Below, piece after piece: positions 30,874 through 37,415 of a stretch of DNA of 64,000 bases. Origin of the DNA: Bacillota bacterium (GTDB taxonomy: Bacteria; Bacillota; TC1); the NCBI GenBank assembly GCA_024635925.1, contig JAGXHY010000022.1, positions 1 to 64,000 on the forward strand, given 5' to 3'. Both the position numbers and the translations under genes were made by a program. The notes under the pieces were generated by a model. That model was not told the origin of the DNA. It did no database searches and worked only from the letters and a program-made list of their open reading frames with translations. How positions within the stretch are numbered: position 1 is the stretch's first letter; each line of letters begins with the position of its first letter.

Positions 30874-30910
30874 CAAAAAAAGAACACTCTAATAAAAATT
30901 AGAGTGTTCT
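30874..30910 (-). terminator. Intrinsic terminator of the cupin gene
   Basis: The arms AGAACACTCTAAT and ATTAGAGTGTTCT are perfect and are followed on the minus strand by a T7 run. Confidence 0.9.
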
Positions 30911-30931
30911 AAATAGTTTTAAAAAATGTCT

Positions 30932-31276
30932 TTACTCTATACCTTGAGCATATCTTTCATCTTCAGGTCTAGGGCTTAATGTTACGTATAAGCTCATATC
31001 CTCTTTAATCTTAGGAATACTAAAATCATCTTCTCCATTTACAAGACCAATAGAGCCTTCTTCAATGTTAATAATACTATCATTTACCTTCATTTCTGCA
31101 GAGCCTGAAAGAACTTTATAAACTAAAGCTGATGTTCCATGCTTGTGAACAGGTAGCTGGTGTCCCACCTTTAAATTTAAAACAAAAGCAAGAACCTTTT
31201 GCTCATCAAATATTATCTTCTTAGTTATAGCCTCATCATTAAATACAATGCTATCTTTTATATTTTTGTTTTCCAT
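30932..31276 (-). CDS. Cupin-domain protein
   Basis: This is a 114-residue single cupin. The first motif is LPVHKHGTSALVYKVLSGSAE, with metal-type histidines H38/H40, and the second is IEEGSIGLVNGEDDFSI, where the usual histidine is replaced by D or N. It could bind a metal or small ligand. No function is assigned. It is monocistronic, with its own terminator. Confidence 0.78.
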   Translation of the reverse strand: MENKNIKDSIVFNDEAITKKIIFDEQKVLAFVLNLKVGHQLPVHKHGTSALVYKVLSGSAEMKVNDSIINIEEGSIGLVNGEDDFSIPKIKEDMSLYVTLSPRPEDERYAQGIE

Positions 31277-31394: not shown

Positions 31395-32231
31395 TTAATT
31401 CAAGGTCTTATACCAAACATTCATACTTTCAATATTACCTGCTATACCAGTATTGTTAGTTAGTGTTCCAGCAAATTGATAACCTAGTTTAGCAAAGGTT
31501 TTATTCATACCTGGAGATAGAGCTCTAGCAATTGTAAAATAGGTTTGAATCTCTTTATTTTTTAGTTCCTCTTCTATTCTAATTAAAAGTTGTTGTGCTA
31601 GGCCTTGTCTTCTATATTCTTTTAAGACAGCAAAGTCAGTTGCTTCAGCATTAGAATTTTCAAAATCTATTTCTGCTGAGGCTAAGGCTATTAACTTTCC
31701 CTCATCTCTAATCCCAAAATATTCTACATCTTCGTGCATAGTTTTTGCTATGTACTCGGGGTCAAATATAGGGAATGGGTAAGTTGCAAATACACCCTTA
31801 TAAAATTCTGCCATTTCTTGAACTTCACCTAAACTCATTTTAAAAATTTCTCTTTTAACACTATTTCTAGAATCAGCTACTTTAATACTTTGAAAAGATT
31901 CTTCTAGAATCTTTTCAATTTCGTCTTTATAGGTTTCAATTTCTCTGTCTGGTGAAAGATATTTACTCATAAAATAGCCATCTTCTATACCATGATACAT
32001 TTGAGGAATATGAGCTTCTTGAACAAAACCATTTCCTACAAAGTCAGTTATGCTGCGCTCTGGGATTTTAGCCATTATTTTTGTATAGCCATTAGTCTCT
32101 GCTAAACTTTCAAGAAGACGAATTACCCTCCCTGTATTTTTAGTATCAAGAGACATTAAATAAATTCTATCACTATGTTTTCCATGTTGAAATATTGTGT
32201 TATCTATAGTTTCAATTTTATCTATCGTCAT
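31395..32231 (-). CDS. ablB: Beta-lysine N6-acetyltransferase
   Basis: A C-terminal GNAT domain is visible ([20 protein letters not shown], then [18 protein letters not shown] with the acetyl-CoA loop). The N-terminal half ([15 protein letters not shown]) is typical of AblB. It acetylates the epsilon-amino group of beta-lysine to give the compatible solute N-epsilon-acetyl-beta-lysine. The ATG six bases after AGGAGG is the start and overlaps the end of ablA by 14 bases, so the two enzymes are coupled. Confidence 0.93.
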
Positions 32232-33528
32232 CCATATCCTCCTCACCAGGTGTTAAAGTAATTCTATCATCAAAATCAGATAATAGACTAGCTACTCCAG
32301 TTGTTTGTTCATCTTCCCCTTTAATTTTTAATACATGTTGAAGATCACATTCAAGACAATGTAAGTCACAATTACCTCCAGAATAGTGTTCTGGTTCCTG
32401 GTAGGTAGTTATTACACCTTCATAGTTTCTTAATATAACCTTATGATCTGACCAAGATATTAAATAATTTGGCATAACAGGTATTTTACCACCACCACCT
32501 GGTGCATCAATAACATAGGTAGGAACAGCAAAACCGCTTGTATGTCCTCTTAGACTTTCCATAATTTCAATACCTTTACCAACTGAAGTTCTAAAATGCT
32601 CTAGTCCTTCTGATAAATCACATTGATATAAATAATAAGGGCGAACTCTATTTTGAGTTAATTTATGAACTAATTTTTTCATAATAATTGGACAATCGTT
32701 AACTCCTGCTAAAAGTACTGATTGATTTCCTAGTGGAATGCCTGCAAAGGCTAACTTTTTTAAGGCAGCTTTTGAATCTTTAGTAATTTCTTTAGGATGA
32801 TTGAAGTGAGTATTTAGCCATAAGACTCCATGTCTTTTTAGCACTTCAATTAAATTGTCTGTTATTCTAAATGGTAATACTACTGGTGTTCTAGTCCCAA
32901 TTCTTACTACTTCTACATGTTCTATTTTTTCTAGTTCACCAAGTAACCAGTCAATCATCTCGTCACTTAATAGGAAAGGATCTCCTCCTGAAAGAAGTAC
33001 GTCTCTAACTACTGGTGTATTTTTTATATATTCTAAACCTTTTTCCAATTGTTCTTTTTTAGGAATAAAGTCTTTATCTCCTACTTTTCTTTTTCTAGTA
33101 CAATGACGGCAATACATAGCACAAACATTACTTACATGAAAGAGTACTCTATCAGGGTAACGGTGTGTAATACCTAATACTGGGCTATCTTTATCTTCTC
33201 CAAGAGGGTCAAGCATGTCATGGTCAGCCACATCTAATTCTCTCATATTAGCAAAGGCCTGTTTAAAGACCGGATCATGTTTATAGTCTTCTGTATCTAC
33301 TAATGATAGATAATATGGTGTTATTGACATAGGAAAGTGCTCTATGGTATGACTTAGCTTGTCTTTTTCTTCCACACTAAATTCTATTCCTAATATTTCT
33401 TCTACTTGTTCGAGTGTTGTAACAGCATTTTTAACTTGCCATTTCCAATCTGTCCATTTTGCTTCTTGGTCAGGACTCAGTTCTTTTTTTTCTCTCTTAC
33501 TCTTAGTTATACTAATTAACTCATCCAT
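32218..33528 (-). CDS. ablA: Lysine 2,3-aminomutase
   Basis: This radical SAM enzyme has the cluster motif CAMYCRHC (C136, C140, C143), GGDPFLLSD near 181 and the PLP lysine K348 in [15 protein letters not shown] cysteine-containing C-terminal segment ([11 protein letters not shown]) follows. It converts L-lysine to L-beta-lysine. Coupling to ablB shows the route is osmolyte synthesis rather than lysine fermentation, since no kamDE or related genes are nearby. Transcription probably passes a conditional terminator in the 220-base leader. Confidence 0.95.
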
Positions 33529-33750
33529 ACTTGTCCTCCTTATAAAAAAAACTCTAACCCTTACATAGAGTTAGAGTGTTTAAGTTTTCCTGTTATACAG
33601 TCCACTTCATACTATATTAATATATAGTATAGATTATCACATTACGATCCTAATCAAATCCTAGTTCTAATTTTCATTTTTCACGCAAGTTATCTTGTAA
33701 GCTCTACTCAATCTTATTACTTCAAAATACTATTACGTACTGTTTAGTAC
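33529..33750 (-). promoter_or_regulatory. Long structured 5' leader of ablAB (unrecognised; possible riboswitch)
   Basis: Between a strong promoter and ablA lies a transcribed leader of about 220 bases. Visible hairpins in order are GUACU-AAAC-AGUAC at the 5' end, CAAG-AUAA-CUUG, a 9-bp hairpin (AUACUAUAU / AUAUAGUAU), CUGU-AUA-ACAG and the terminator next to the ribosome site. A stretch reading GAGUAGAG could pair with the CUCUAACUC of the terminator's 5' arm and act as an antiterminator. I do not recognise lysine, SAM, T-box or ydaO consensus elements in it. Confidence 0.5.
33544..33577 (-). terminator. Attenuator hairpin directly before the ablA ribosome site
   Basis: The minus strand reads ACTCTAAC, an 11-base loop, then GTTAGAGT followed by T8. 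The T-run ends only a few bases before the AAGGAGG of ablA, so this must act on ablA itself rather than on an upstream gene, which ends over 300 bases earlier. Confidence 0.75.
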
Positions 33751-33756
33751 TATATG

Positions 33757-33785
33757 AGTATACATCATATTGCCCTTTTTGTCAA
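33757..33785 (-). promoter_or_regulatory. SigA-type promoter of ablAB
   Basis: TTGACA (33780-33785) and TATACT (33757-33762) are separated by exactly 17 bases. This near-consensus promoter puts the transcript start near 33750. Confidence 0.85.
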
Positions 33786-33914: not shown

Positions 33915-34667
33915 TTAAATAAGGTTAATACCTACTACAATACAGATTAAAGCAACAACAACACTAAGTAATGTTCCTACTAAATACTTTTCTGCAAAAT
34001 CCTTGTTATCTAGTTGTTTAAATCTAGCTAAACTCTTAGCTGCCAAGACAAATCCAATAGCTCCAATTTGTCCACTTAATCCTAGAGTCAACATTATGAT
34101 TCTTTCTAATACACCAATTAAATATCCACTCTTTATTAGATCCTCTTTTTCATCTTTATCACCACTATCAAGTGAAAATAATCTAAATACCAACCTTATA
34201 AGAACTGCTGCAGGTGTTGTAATGAGTAAGTATAACAATACAGTTATCAATATCTTACTAAGTTGTTCCCCACCTACATAATTAACTACCAACTGTCCTA
34301 TACCACTTAAACCTTGTATAAAGGAACTAAAGATAATAATAATCAGGATATGAAGCAGTTGATCCACTAGGAAGGCAGATAATTCTCTTTTTCTCTTATC
34401 TATCTTCTTATCTGATCTATTCTTATTCTTTTTGATTAGAATATGTAGCCTATCAATTAAACCATGTAAGCTCACAATTGTAATAAATATTAGAGCAATC
34501 TTACTCACTGGATCAAACCAAACTAGAGCTAAAAATATCATTAAGGCATATATCAAACAATGTTTAATGAAATACCTAAAATCCTTAGTCTTTCCCTTAG
34601 CTAACTTACTACTTTGGAAGATAAAATCTCCTAGTACATGGGCTATTAATAATAGTGTTAATTCCAT
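33915..34667 (-). CDS. DUF3307 membrane protein
   Basis: The N-terminus LIAHVLGDFIFQSSKLAKGK followed by FRYFIKHCLIYALM is typical of DUF3307. About seven membrane helices span 250 residues. It follows a SatD-family gene by 31 bases. The two families are repeatedly found side by side (satD/satE in streptococci), so they probably act together. Their role is not known. Confidence 0.82.
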   Translation of the reverse strand: MELTLLLIAHVLGDFIFQSSKLAKGKTKDFRYFIKHCLIYALMIFLALVWFDPVSKIALIFITIVSLHGLIDRLHILIKKNKNRSDKKIDKRKRELSAFLVDQLLHILIIIIFSSFIQGLSGIGQLVVNYVGGEQLSKILITVLLYLLITTPAAVLIRLVFRLFSLDSGDKDEKEDLIKSGYLIGVLERIIMLTLGLSGQIGAIGFVLAAKSLARFKQLDNKDFAEKYLVGTLLSVVVALICIVVGINLI

Positions 34668-34698
34668 AGTTCACCTCAATTTACTTTCATTCACACAA

Positions 34699-35517
34699 CT
34701 AACTTATATAATTATCTTTAATATAGAGTATTGAAGTTAGATCAATATTTCTTATATAGCCTATATTAGCTTTTTTTATAGTACTTTCTATATTTTGCCT
34801 TGTTGTCTTAGTAATTCCTGCAATTATTGAAGATAGACCTTTTACTACAGGTACTTCTATTATCATTCCACTATCCCCAATACCCACATCACCTGCAATA
34901 TCAAATGGAAATATCTCATGCTCATAATCAAATTTATAAGTACTTTTCTCCTCTATCAACTTATATATCCTAAGTATATTGTCATTGTCATATATCATCA
35001 ATTCTTTGTCAATTAGAGGACTGATCATCTCAACTAATAATTGAACTCTATTTTGTTTAAGGCTCTGACCTCTTACCAATAAGCTCCTCGTGTTCAATAA
35101 GGTATTTAAGTACCCATCTCTAACGCTTTTAGAATTAAATAATATATCATAGTCTTTTCTATCTTGAACAAGTCTAATAGCTTCTCTAGCATAATGATAA
35201 GTAGGTCCGTCTTGTTCTGAGGAGGTTCCCCCCTCCACCCTTATATCCCATTTACCATAACCAATACCACATCTTATTTGTATTGGTGCAAGTAACATCT
35301 TTAGTAATCTAAAGTAGAGTACAGCACTCTCAGCTCTCCGAAATAATCCTTGAAATTCATCACCAGCACTAAATATTACTTCAAACTCCAATTCTGGTTT
35401 AAAGATATCATTAAGTGTCTCTAAGCAGTTTTTTATATATATTTGTAACTTTTCTCTATCTTTCTTATCAATTTTTTTGGACTGTACTATATCTATCATC
35501 ATAGTTGTATAGTTCAT
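34699..35517 (-). CDS. SatD family protein
   Basis: The protein opens with YTTMMIDIVQSKKIDKKDRE and contains EVIFSAGDEFQGLFR and RCGIGYGKWDI, which define the SatD family. The core resembles class III nucleotidyl-cyclase folds, but catalytic metal residues are not obvious. A C-terminal HTH-like segment (AGITKTTRQNIESTIKKANI) may bind DNA. The start is placed at the ATG following GGTG; a GTG three codons earlier is possible. It is paired with the DUF3307 gene. Confidence 0.8.
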   Translation of the reverse strand: MNYTTMMIDIVQSKKIDKKDREKLQIYIKNCLETLNDIFKPELEFEVIFSAGDEFQGLFRRAESAVLYFRLLKMLLAPIQIRCGIGYGKWDIRVEGGTSSEQDGPTYHYAREAIRLVQDRKDYDILFNSKSVRDGYLNTLLNTRSLLVRGQSLKQNRVQLLVEMISPLIDKELMIYDNDNILRIYKLIEEKSTYKFDYEHEIFPFDIAGDVGIGDSGMIIEVPVVKGLSSIIAGITKTTRQNIESTIKKANIGYIRNIDLTSILYIKDNYIS

Positions 35518-35602
35518 AATTTTCACCTACCTTACCTCTACACCCATTATACCAAGACCTTAAATAATTGCAACCTTTTTACCTTGCTTTTTATCTTTGC
35601 AA

Positions 35603-35637
35603 ATAAAATAGATTGCATACTTACTATGCAATCTATT
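35603..35637 (-). terminator. Intrinsic terminator
   Basis: The arms AATAGATTGCAT and ATGCAATCTATT are perfect and followed by TTTTATTT on the minus strand. It ends the macro-domain/vWA transcript. Confidence 0.82.
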
Positions 35638-35664
35638 CAAGTACTAACTAATCAATCAAATTAA

Positions 35665-36309
35665 TTACTTCCTCTTCATATAATCCTGATCTATGGTAAA
35701 CTTCCAATCTTCACTAATTTCCTTATTTCCTCTCAAATCATTAATAGCATTACTAACAGCTGTATAGTTTAGTTCCACTCCTTCTGTGTCATTATGGAAC
35801 CTAGCTGATCTATCACGGTCTATGCCAAATCTTTCACCTTCAACTTCTGCATCAATATTTGCTCCTAGGAAAATGAATTCCCAGTCATAGTTTTTCTTTT
35901 GTTTTTGTATCATTCTTTTTATTTCATTATAGTTGTATTCACAACTTGCATTTTCCATACCATCAGTGGTAATTACAAATATAACTTTTTCTGCTTGTTG
36001 TTCTTTTGTTGTATTACGTTGAATAGAGATCATTTTATGTATTGTCTTGCCAACTGCATCTAAGAGTGCAGTTGTTCCTCTAACATAGTAGTCTTTCTTT
36101 GTTATTGGTTTTACACCCCTTATACTAATGTGATCATGAAGTAGTTCATAGTCATTATCAAACAAAATGGTAGTAATATTGGCTTGTCCCTCTATTTCTT
36201 TTTGTTTACTTAGCATGGAGTTAAATCCTCCAATAGTGTCCTTTTCTAATCCACTCATTGATCCGCTACGGTCTAGTATAAATACTAGTTCTGTTAAGTT
36301 CTTTTTCAT
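35665..36309 (-). CDS. von Willebrand factor A domain protein
   Basis: The MIDAS metal site is complete: DRSGSMSG at 13-20, a threonine in RGTTALLDAVG and TTDGMENAS near 112. The domain fills the whole 214 residues and has no signal peptide, so it is cytoplasmic. It resembles TerY/YfbK-type vWA proteins. The upstream gene encodes a macro domain fused to an HTH-like region, 83 bases away on the same strand, which suggests a joint role. Confidence 0.85.
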   Translation of the reverse strand: MKKNLTELVFILDRSGSMSGLEKDTIGGFNSMLSKQKEIEGQANITTILFDNDYELLHDHISIRGVKPITKKDYYVRGTTALLDAVGKTIHKMISIQRNTTKEQQAEKVIFVITTDGMENASCEYNYNEIKRMIQKQKKNYDWEFIFLGANIDAEVEGERFGIDRDRSARFHNDTEGVELNYTAVSNAINDLRGNKEISEDWKFTIDQDYMKRK

Positions 36310-36392
36310 GGTATTGTCCTCCTTTAATCTTTTGTTAATTAAAGAATACCATTAAAAAAATGTCTACAGGTCGCACCTAAAGCGACAAATTA

Positions 36393-37415
36393 TTACATAC
36401 CTAATAAGGATAAATTATACTCAAACAACATACTGTTTATTTCGTGTATGTTGTAAAATTCTTCTGTTATGAAGTATTCTATTATAACATCAAACTTACT
36501 GCTCTTAGAGAGGGCAAATCCGGCCTTCTGGAGTAGGTCTTTGGTCTCGTCAAGGTTCAGTTCTAATCCAATAGCAAGTGCAATCGCTGTAGCCTTACTT
36601 GGCTTATAGTTCTTGTCACTCCTTATCTTAGAAAAGAGCTTTCGATCTATATTAGCTTTTTTATAAACTTCCACATCTGTTTTCCCCATTAAATCTATTT
36701 GATTAAGTAGGTGTTCGGAAAAGGTTTCTTGGAGTTTATTTAGAATGTCTTCTAGTTTTCTACTACTTGACTCTTCCTTACTTGATTCACTATAGGAGTC
36801 AATATTAAATAATTGTTGTATATTTCTCTCATCAAATCTACTTATCTGATTATATGATTCATTATAAAGTTCATCATCATCAAACTCTAGTATATAGTTT
36901 TCATCAATATAGTTTTGGACTGAATCAAACAATTCTTTAGAGATAGCATAAGCTCTCTTATCATATACCACTAAAGTAACTTCCATCTCGTGTTCTTCTA
37001 AAAACTTACTTATCATATCTACTGCTATTTCTAATGCTCTTTCTTTAGGAAAGCCATATGTGCCTGCTGATATTAGAGGAAAGGCTATGCTATTTAATCC
37101 TAAATTCAAGGCTAAGTCTAAGGAGTTCTTATAGCAAAACTCTAAAAGCTCTTCTTCTCTAAAACCCCCACCTTCCCAGACAGGTCCTACAGTGTGTATA
37201 ACATACTCAGCTGGTAGATCATATCCACTAGTTAATCTTACTTCTCCTATTGGACAGCCTCCAATTTTCTTACATTCTTCCAATAAACCAATACCTGCTA
37301 CTTTATGTATTGCTCCATCTACACCACCACCACCAACTAACCAAGTATTAGCTGCATTGACTATGGCATCCACTTCTATTTTTGTTATGTCTGCTCTTAT
37401 TATTTTTAGTGGCAT
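36393..37415 (-). CDS. Macro domain with C-terminal HTH-like domain
   Basis: Residues 1-165 form a macro domain (ADP-ribose binding) with IVNAANTWLVGGGGVDGAIH, GEVRLTSGYDLPAEYVIHTV and ISAGTYGFPKERAL. A low-complexity acidic linker leads to residues 220-335, where LLNQIDLMGKTDVEVYKKAN, IDRKLFSKIRSDKNYKPSK and TAIALAIGLELNLDETKDLL look like a divergent XRE-type HTH. The protein could remove ADP-ribose from a target, or bind ADP-ribose and report by DNA binding. The partner vWA gene follows. Confidence 0.85.
   Translation of the reverse strand: MPLKIIRADITKIEVDAIVNAANTWLVGGGGVDGAIHKVAGIGLLEECKKIGGCPIGEVRLTSGYDLPAEYVIHTVGPVWEGGGFREEELLEFCYKNSLDLALNLGLNSIAFPLISAGTYGFPKERALEIAVDMISKFLEEHEMEVTLVVYDKRAYAISKELFDSVQNYIDENYILEFDDDELYNESYNQISRFDERNIQQLFNIDSYSESSKEESSSRKLEDILNKLQETFSEHLLNQIDLMGKTDVEVYKKANIDRKLFSKIRSDKNYKPSKATAIALAIGLELNLDETKDLLQKAGFALSKSSKFDVIIEYFITEEFYNIHEINSMLFEYNLSLLGM

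Follow-up and report, generated by a model that had tools for sequence, protein, structure and literature searches.

The window, a 64,000-nt stretch of Bacillota DNA (contig JAGXHY010000022.1), carries upstream of the osmolyte genes ablA and ablB a leader that is probably a shortened copy of an undescribed cis-acting RNA that attenuates transcription. Relatives share a conserved RNA of ~250 nt upstream of osmolyte genes. We regard this RNA as a riboswitch candidate that would control the synthesis and uptake of compatible solutes in some Bacillota.

All elements of the leader and both genes lie on the minus strand of the window. ablA encodes a lysine 2,3-aminomutase of 436 aa (32218-33528; TIGR03820, 727 bits) and ablB a beta-lysine N-acetyltransferase of 283 aa (31395-32246; TIGR03827, 321 bits). 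The leader is preceded by a sigma-70-type promoter, TTGACA-N17-TATACT, with 11 of 12 matches (33757-33785), from which the start of transcription was inferred. Since looser 9/12 sites are no more frequent than in shuffled sequences, the weight of the promoter rests on the relatives, where its position is conserved: in 40 of the 48 homologous leaders, the best promoter within 120 nt upstream scored 10/12 or more (mean 10.6 vs 7.9 shuffled). The leader itself (33750-33543) folds better than 200 out of 200 dinucleotide shuffles (z -3.25). It ends in an intrinsic terminator, an 11-bp stem-loop (33551-33577) with a T-run at 33550-33544 after the stem; the terminator search found one such element vs 0.3 expected. 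The terminator abuts the ribosome-binding site of ablA, AGGAGG (33535-33540), and the start codon follows at 33528. The first-pass annotation had described an attenuated leader on ablAB with a near-perfect promoter, and its three elements (promoter, structured leader, and terminator adjoining the ribosome site) were all confirmed. Beyond the promoter, the minus strand at 33915-37415 holds open reading frames that by eye resemble DUF3307-type membrane, SatD-like, vWA-domain, and macrodomain proteins.

The covariance model R1 covers the 3' domain; built from 19 sequences that did not include the window, it recovered the window copy with a score of 99.2 bits (E 4e-22). When the whole leader was searched as DNA against 61 genomes, strong scores were obtained, besides the leader itself, only in G001 and G002, two members of the same genus. 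Among 80 ablA loci from the genome collection, 23 had a clear upstream homolog (nhmmer), most of them clostridial, and one (L077) had a weak one; cultured carriers are Acetobacterium, Anaeromicropila, and Clostridium vincentii. The distribution is patchy: 26 of 398 genomes of the phylum carry the RNA. Counted by group, it was found in 7 of 10 genomes from the class of G020 and 2 of 59 from another class, and in 3 of 225 from one order and 2 of 3 from another. Weak R1 matches in G006 and G042 and reverse-strand matches on the terminator palindrome were dropped, with three rows of this kind removed from the alignment before counting.

Several individual copies deserve mention. The weak homolog in Alkalibacter mobilis (L077, 2505-2632) is a decayed copy, with deviations at 22 of 42 conserved positions; ablA lies ~370 nt downstream of it. 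One contig (L086) holds two copies on opposite strands, at 683-965 and 2679-2936, on ablA and on the gene of an ABC binding protein. The contig of a Paludibacter MAG (L083) is probably misbinned: it carries an RNA that hardly differs from the copies in L085 and L094, which belong to Acetobacterium and a Firmicutes MAG. In the window, R1 gave a second, weak match on the minus strand (30882-30985; 21.9 bits, E 0.007), partly within a small cupin-like open reading frame, which probably reflects terminator similarity.

The RNA is laid out as a 5' arm with AGUA/GAAA-type internal loops followed by a four-way junction of P1, P3, P4, and P5. In the window, the R1 match and the alignment place hairpins P3, P4, and P5 at 33632-33655, 33608-33631, and 33582-33607. 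Just 5' of P3, a conserved stretch with the core AGARCUGGGGYYU in homologs (UUAGAACUAGGAUUU in the window, 33656-33670) forms the 5' strand of P1. By pairing with the terminator's 5' arm, it closes P3, P4, and P5 into the junction. The 3' strand of P1 (33565-33581), assigned by covariation and folding, overlaps that terminator arm (AAACACUCUAACUCUAU).

Covariation was counted on 49 aligned R1 matches (alignment A7), from which the window, L077, L148, L164, and L118 were left out. For P3-P5 and the terminator, 95.8% of cells were paired, 27 of 38 pairs showed two-sided changes, and covariation was 0.534 compared to 0.255 in shuffles, which keep the relatedness among sequences, and at most 0.14 with slid partners, which remove it in part. 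P1 was paired in 90.0% of cells, with a covariation of 0.322 vs 0.200 shuffled (0/500) and at most 0.158 slid, A7 having been fitted to a model with the terminator and without P1, and the register of P1 having been chosen on the same alignment as was counted. At the column pair 36-218, 44 of the 49 sequences have G-C and 5 have A-U; the A-U pairs occur in L138, L168, L170, L171, and L172, of which L171 and L172 represent one family (G095, G129) and the rest different families or records. The pairs 37-217, 38-216, 39-215, and 26-230 also vary in type. The four inner pairs (columns 32-35) are nearly invariant and thus uninformative, and 31 of the 49 sequences lack a pair at column 30-226, where 30 have an A.C mismatch. 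The 5' domain was counted in 31 of the 49 sequences with a 3' domain (A8) and was paired in 90.7% of cells, with a covariation of 0.859 vs 0.303 shuffled and at most 0.185 slid. The start pattern used for this domain missed L170 and gave doubtful starts in L156, L166, and segments of L064 and L066. The related leaders therefore share a large conserved, covarying structure beyond the terminator, contrary to the possibility, raised in the first-pass annotation, that nothing but the terminator would be conserved.

The P1 3' strand is at the same time the 5' arm of the terminator, so that P1 and the terminator exclude each other. In folds of the 49 3' domains, the mean pair probability of P1 was 0.52 when the 3' arm of the terminator was missing and 0.01 when the terminator was complete, the terminator itself then reaching 0.90. 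These values indicate that the terminator is the default. Given the mutual exclusion, we infer that a ligand or other factor stabilising P1 would turn transcription on, as in other switches of the same layout such as Na+-I. Taken together, the RNA has a conserved, covarying complex fold, a 5'-leader position on the sense strand behind a promoter, and, by comparison and prediction, mutually exclusive sensing and expression structures, all of which are expected of a riboswitch.

No RNA family was found to match the RNA. Rfam gave no match in the whole window at gathering score, just four sub-threshold chance matches to unrelated families in the window leader at E<=5, and chance matches only in two homologous leaders at E<=10. 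In 19 ablA loci, the majority of which carry the RNA, and 20 whole-genome loci, none of the matches fell on the RNA and five lay elsewhere in the loci. The leaders matched neither RF03071 (Na+-I), RF00379 (c-di-AMP, ydaO; the matches in the genomes are located elsewhere), nor RF00230 (T-box), and the lysine riboswitch model gave no match at gathering score, E<=5, or E<=10. The first-pass view that the leader fits none of the lysine, SAM, T-box, and ydaO patterns therefore holds. T-box and lysine leaders are likewise terminator-based and contain AGUA/GAA internal loops of a similar kind, but the genes behind the new RNA are not lysine- or tRNA-specific. Kinship with the T-box was suggested by these loops and by a U(A/G)GAAC stretch; it was rejected for lack of an Rfam match and of the T-box bulge motif UGGNACC, which none of the 49 3' domains and none of the 48 5' domains contain.

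Two known riboswitches act on the same genes. According to the parts of PMC9337991 that deal with them, the Na+-I riboswitch (DUF1646 motif) precedes ablA in Dehalobacter as well as further osmolyte genes and is an ON switch in which the aptamer stem and an intrinsic terminator cannot form together. The c-di-AMP riboswitch (ydaO) is described there as a regulator of osmolyte genes, among them ablA, where it stands in tandem with Na+-I and acts as an OFF switch. The new RNA thus shares with Na+-I, so described, the genes and the layout of a stem opposed to a terminator; Na+-I is compact, however, with 55 model positions, and occurs in only 1 of 28 genomes carrying the new RNA. The ydaO element, found in 15 of these 28 genomes and not found in 13, shares the osmolyte genes but is described there as an OFF switch, whereas ON is predicted for the new RNA. 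The opuB motif (PMC11109978) and the proX motif (PMC8632094) are riboswitch candidates upstream of compatible-solute transporter genes. Judging from excerpts of their descriptions, by which alone we set them apart, they occur mostly in Enterobacteriaceae and Spiribacter and act at the ribosome site, not at a terminator. Our search of the open-licence literature found no paper describing the new RNA.

The genes downstream of the RNA share a narrow theme. We kept 34 whole-genome loci from the R1 matches, the window included, and in all 34 the RNA lies directly upstream of a gene read from the same strand. Judged by which of six reference proteins each one matches best, these genes comprise 12 family-3 (amino-acid) ABC binding proteins, 11 AblA (window included), 5 ProV, 4 BCCT, 1 EhuB, and 1 phosphoribosyltransferase. 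Representatives were checked against NCBIfam and Pfam protein families: ProV, of betaine ABC transporters, scored 453 and 408 bits (cut-off 327), BCCT 546 bits (Pfam), and EhuB (ectoine) 287 bits (cut-off 191); the family-3 binding proteins were assigned by Pfam and score below the curated cut-offs for any substrate. In the training set of R1, 18 of 19 rows precede ablA and one, the second copy in L086, precedes an ABC binding protein. Most of the non-ablA genes were thus not preselected by the training of the model. Judged from these sequence assignments, the ablA, ProV, BCCT, EhuB, and family-3 binding-protein genes form a putative compatible-solute regulon of the RNA. The sole non-osmolyte context is a 47-bit copy with poor hairpins on the phosphoribosyltransferase gene (L148, 1041-1174). 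The ablA gene of G002 (L062, 3001-4301; AblA match of 1301 nt) is in two pieces with an internal TGA and looks frameshifted, or contains an assembly error.

The copy in the window differs from this family picture. Its 5' domain is a remnant (33677-33723) that keeps the outer GAAGUA and GAAAAA and the inner GAGUA; ~60 nt are missing between CUUGCG and UGAAAAAU, in the 3' half of the arm (60 nt relative to G001 and 59 nt relative to G002). This shortening is visible by comparison with G001 and G002, not from the window alone. At 4 of the 39 positions conserved in the 3' domain, the window copy departs from the consensus; G001 and G002 each do so at 0 of 38. In its P1, a consensus G is replaced by A opposite C, which breaks a pair kept in 49 of 49 homologs, and the P1 duplex amounts to -4.7 kcal/mol vs -8.3 in the G001 sequence. 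With the 5' arm truncated and an invariant P1 pair broken, sensing by the window copy is probably weakened or lost.

The first-pass annotation had proposed GAGUAGAG (33702-33709) as the antiterminator that frees transcription by pairing with the terminator's 5' arm. For the predicted fold of the window copy the proposal stands: this pairing amounts to -8.4 kcal/mol, and its pair probability is ~0.89 in a transcript stopped before the 3' arm. It fails as a mechanism of the family, since the motif occurs in 0 of 48 homologous 5' domains; at that place, homologs have the 5' strand of an AGUA/GAAA internal loop. The partner of the terminator arm in the family is, by covariation, the AGARCUGGGGYU strand of P1, whose duplex is stronger than GAGUA-type pairing in 43 of 48 homologs. 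When whole transcripts were folded with the 5' domain, P1 gained more expected pairs than GAGUA-type pairing in only 29 of 48. In AT-rich copies, including those of the window's genus, a GAGUA stretch pairing with the terminator arm is predicted to compete with P1, and in the window copy and those of its two genus relatives a pairing of the GAGUAGAG kind is predicted to win. Given the energies of the two duplexes and the structure predicted before the 3' arm is made, the window copy may now use the GAGUAGAG antiterminator. It is conceivable, if rather doubtful, that the window leader should be read entirely on its own terms, as one that lost its 5' arm and in which GAGUAGAG became the antiterminator of a constitutive or differently tuned attenuation. 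A related pairing of -10.1 kcal/mol that is possible in G001 and G002 would fit such a course as well as the window energies do; the homologs, in lacking GAGUAGAG and favouring P1, speak against it, and it concerns the single window copy, not the RNA family.

For the family, the question is what the RNA senses. The regulated genes serve different solutes (N-acetyl-beta-lysine, betaine, ectoine, and amino acids), which makes a general osmotic signal the simplest common ligand. At somewhat less than even odds, the RNA may found a new riboswitch class that would sense such a signal (K+, ionic strength, or Na+ by an unrelated fold) and turn on the synthesis and import of several different solutes together. 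Lysine was considered as the ligand and rejected because betaine and BCCT genes also carry the RNA. It seems very improbable that the RNA is a new sensor of c-di-AMP beside ydaO, turning osmolyte genes down at high c-di-AMP. The regulation of ablA by c-di-AMP riboswitches elsewhere, in the account of PMC9337991 given above, would fit this reading, and the DAC cyclase is present in 25 of the 28 RNA-carrying genomes, the ydaO element in 15. No DAC domain was found, however, in the window's genome (G000), G001, or G002, three related MAGs with a completeness of 95-98%, and G001 and G002 keep full-scoring copies of the RNA despite this. Subject to MAG completeness, the lack of a DAC match in the window's genus thus disfavours c-di-AMP, and the overlap of P1 and terminator predicts an ON switch, opposite to the OFF behaviour described for ydaO on ablA. 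An osmotically responsive RNA-binding protein that binds the junction or the 5' arm and stabilises P1 is a less remote alternative, albeit an unlikely one: the conserved loop stretches and the AGUA/GAAA loops would suit a protein site too, but typical protein-binding antiterminators are smaller than a multi-helix fold of ~250 nt with a conserved core. We hold it to be highly improbable that the RNA senses nothing and is just a conserved leader with a terminator, or else a free small RNA. The terminator lies well upstream of ablA in L064, L065, and L066, so that a separate transcript is conceivable there; against this, all 34 whole-genome loci stand before same-strand genes whose functions follow a narrow theme, and covariation links P1 to the terminator arm.

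In the mechanism that we propose for the osmotic switch, the terminator would win by default and transcription would stop before the osmolyte genes. A signal that stabilises the junction and P1 would allow RNA polymerase to read through. This signal would most likely be ionic strength or one of the monovalent cations K+ and Na+, because the regulated genes do not have any one solute in common. The window copy keeps the terminator, while its sensing has probably been weakened or lost.

As far as the relevant parts of PMC9337991 describe them, Na+-I and c-di-AMP riboswitches on ablA were already known; what is new is an RNA without an Rfam match on osmolyte genes. The open-licence literature that we searched named no RNA sensing K+ or the general osmotic state. 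A large RNA common to beta-lysine, betaine, ectoine, and amino-acid transport genes would offer a direct handle on salt-stress sensing in anaerobic Bacillota, and its cultured carriers make it accessible to experiments.
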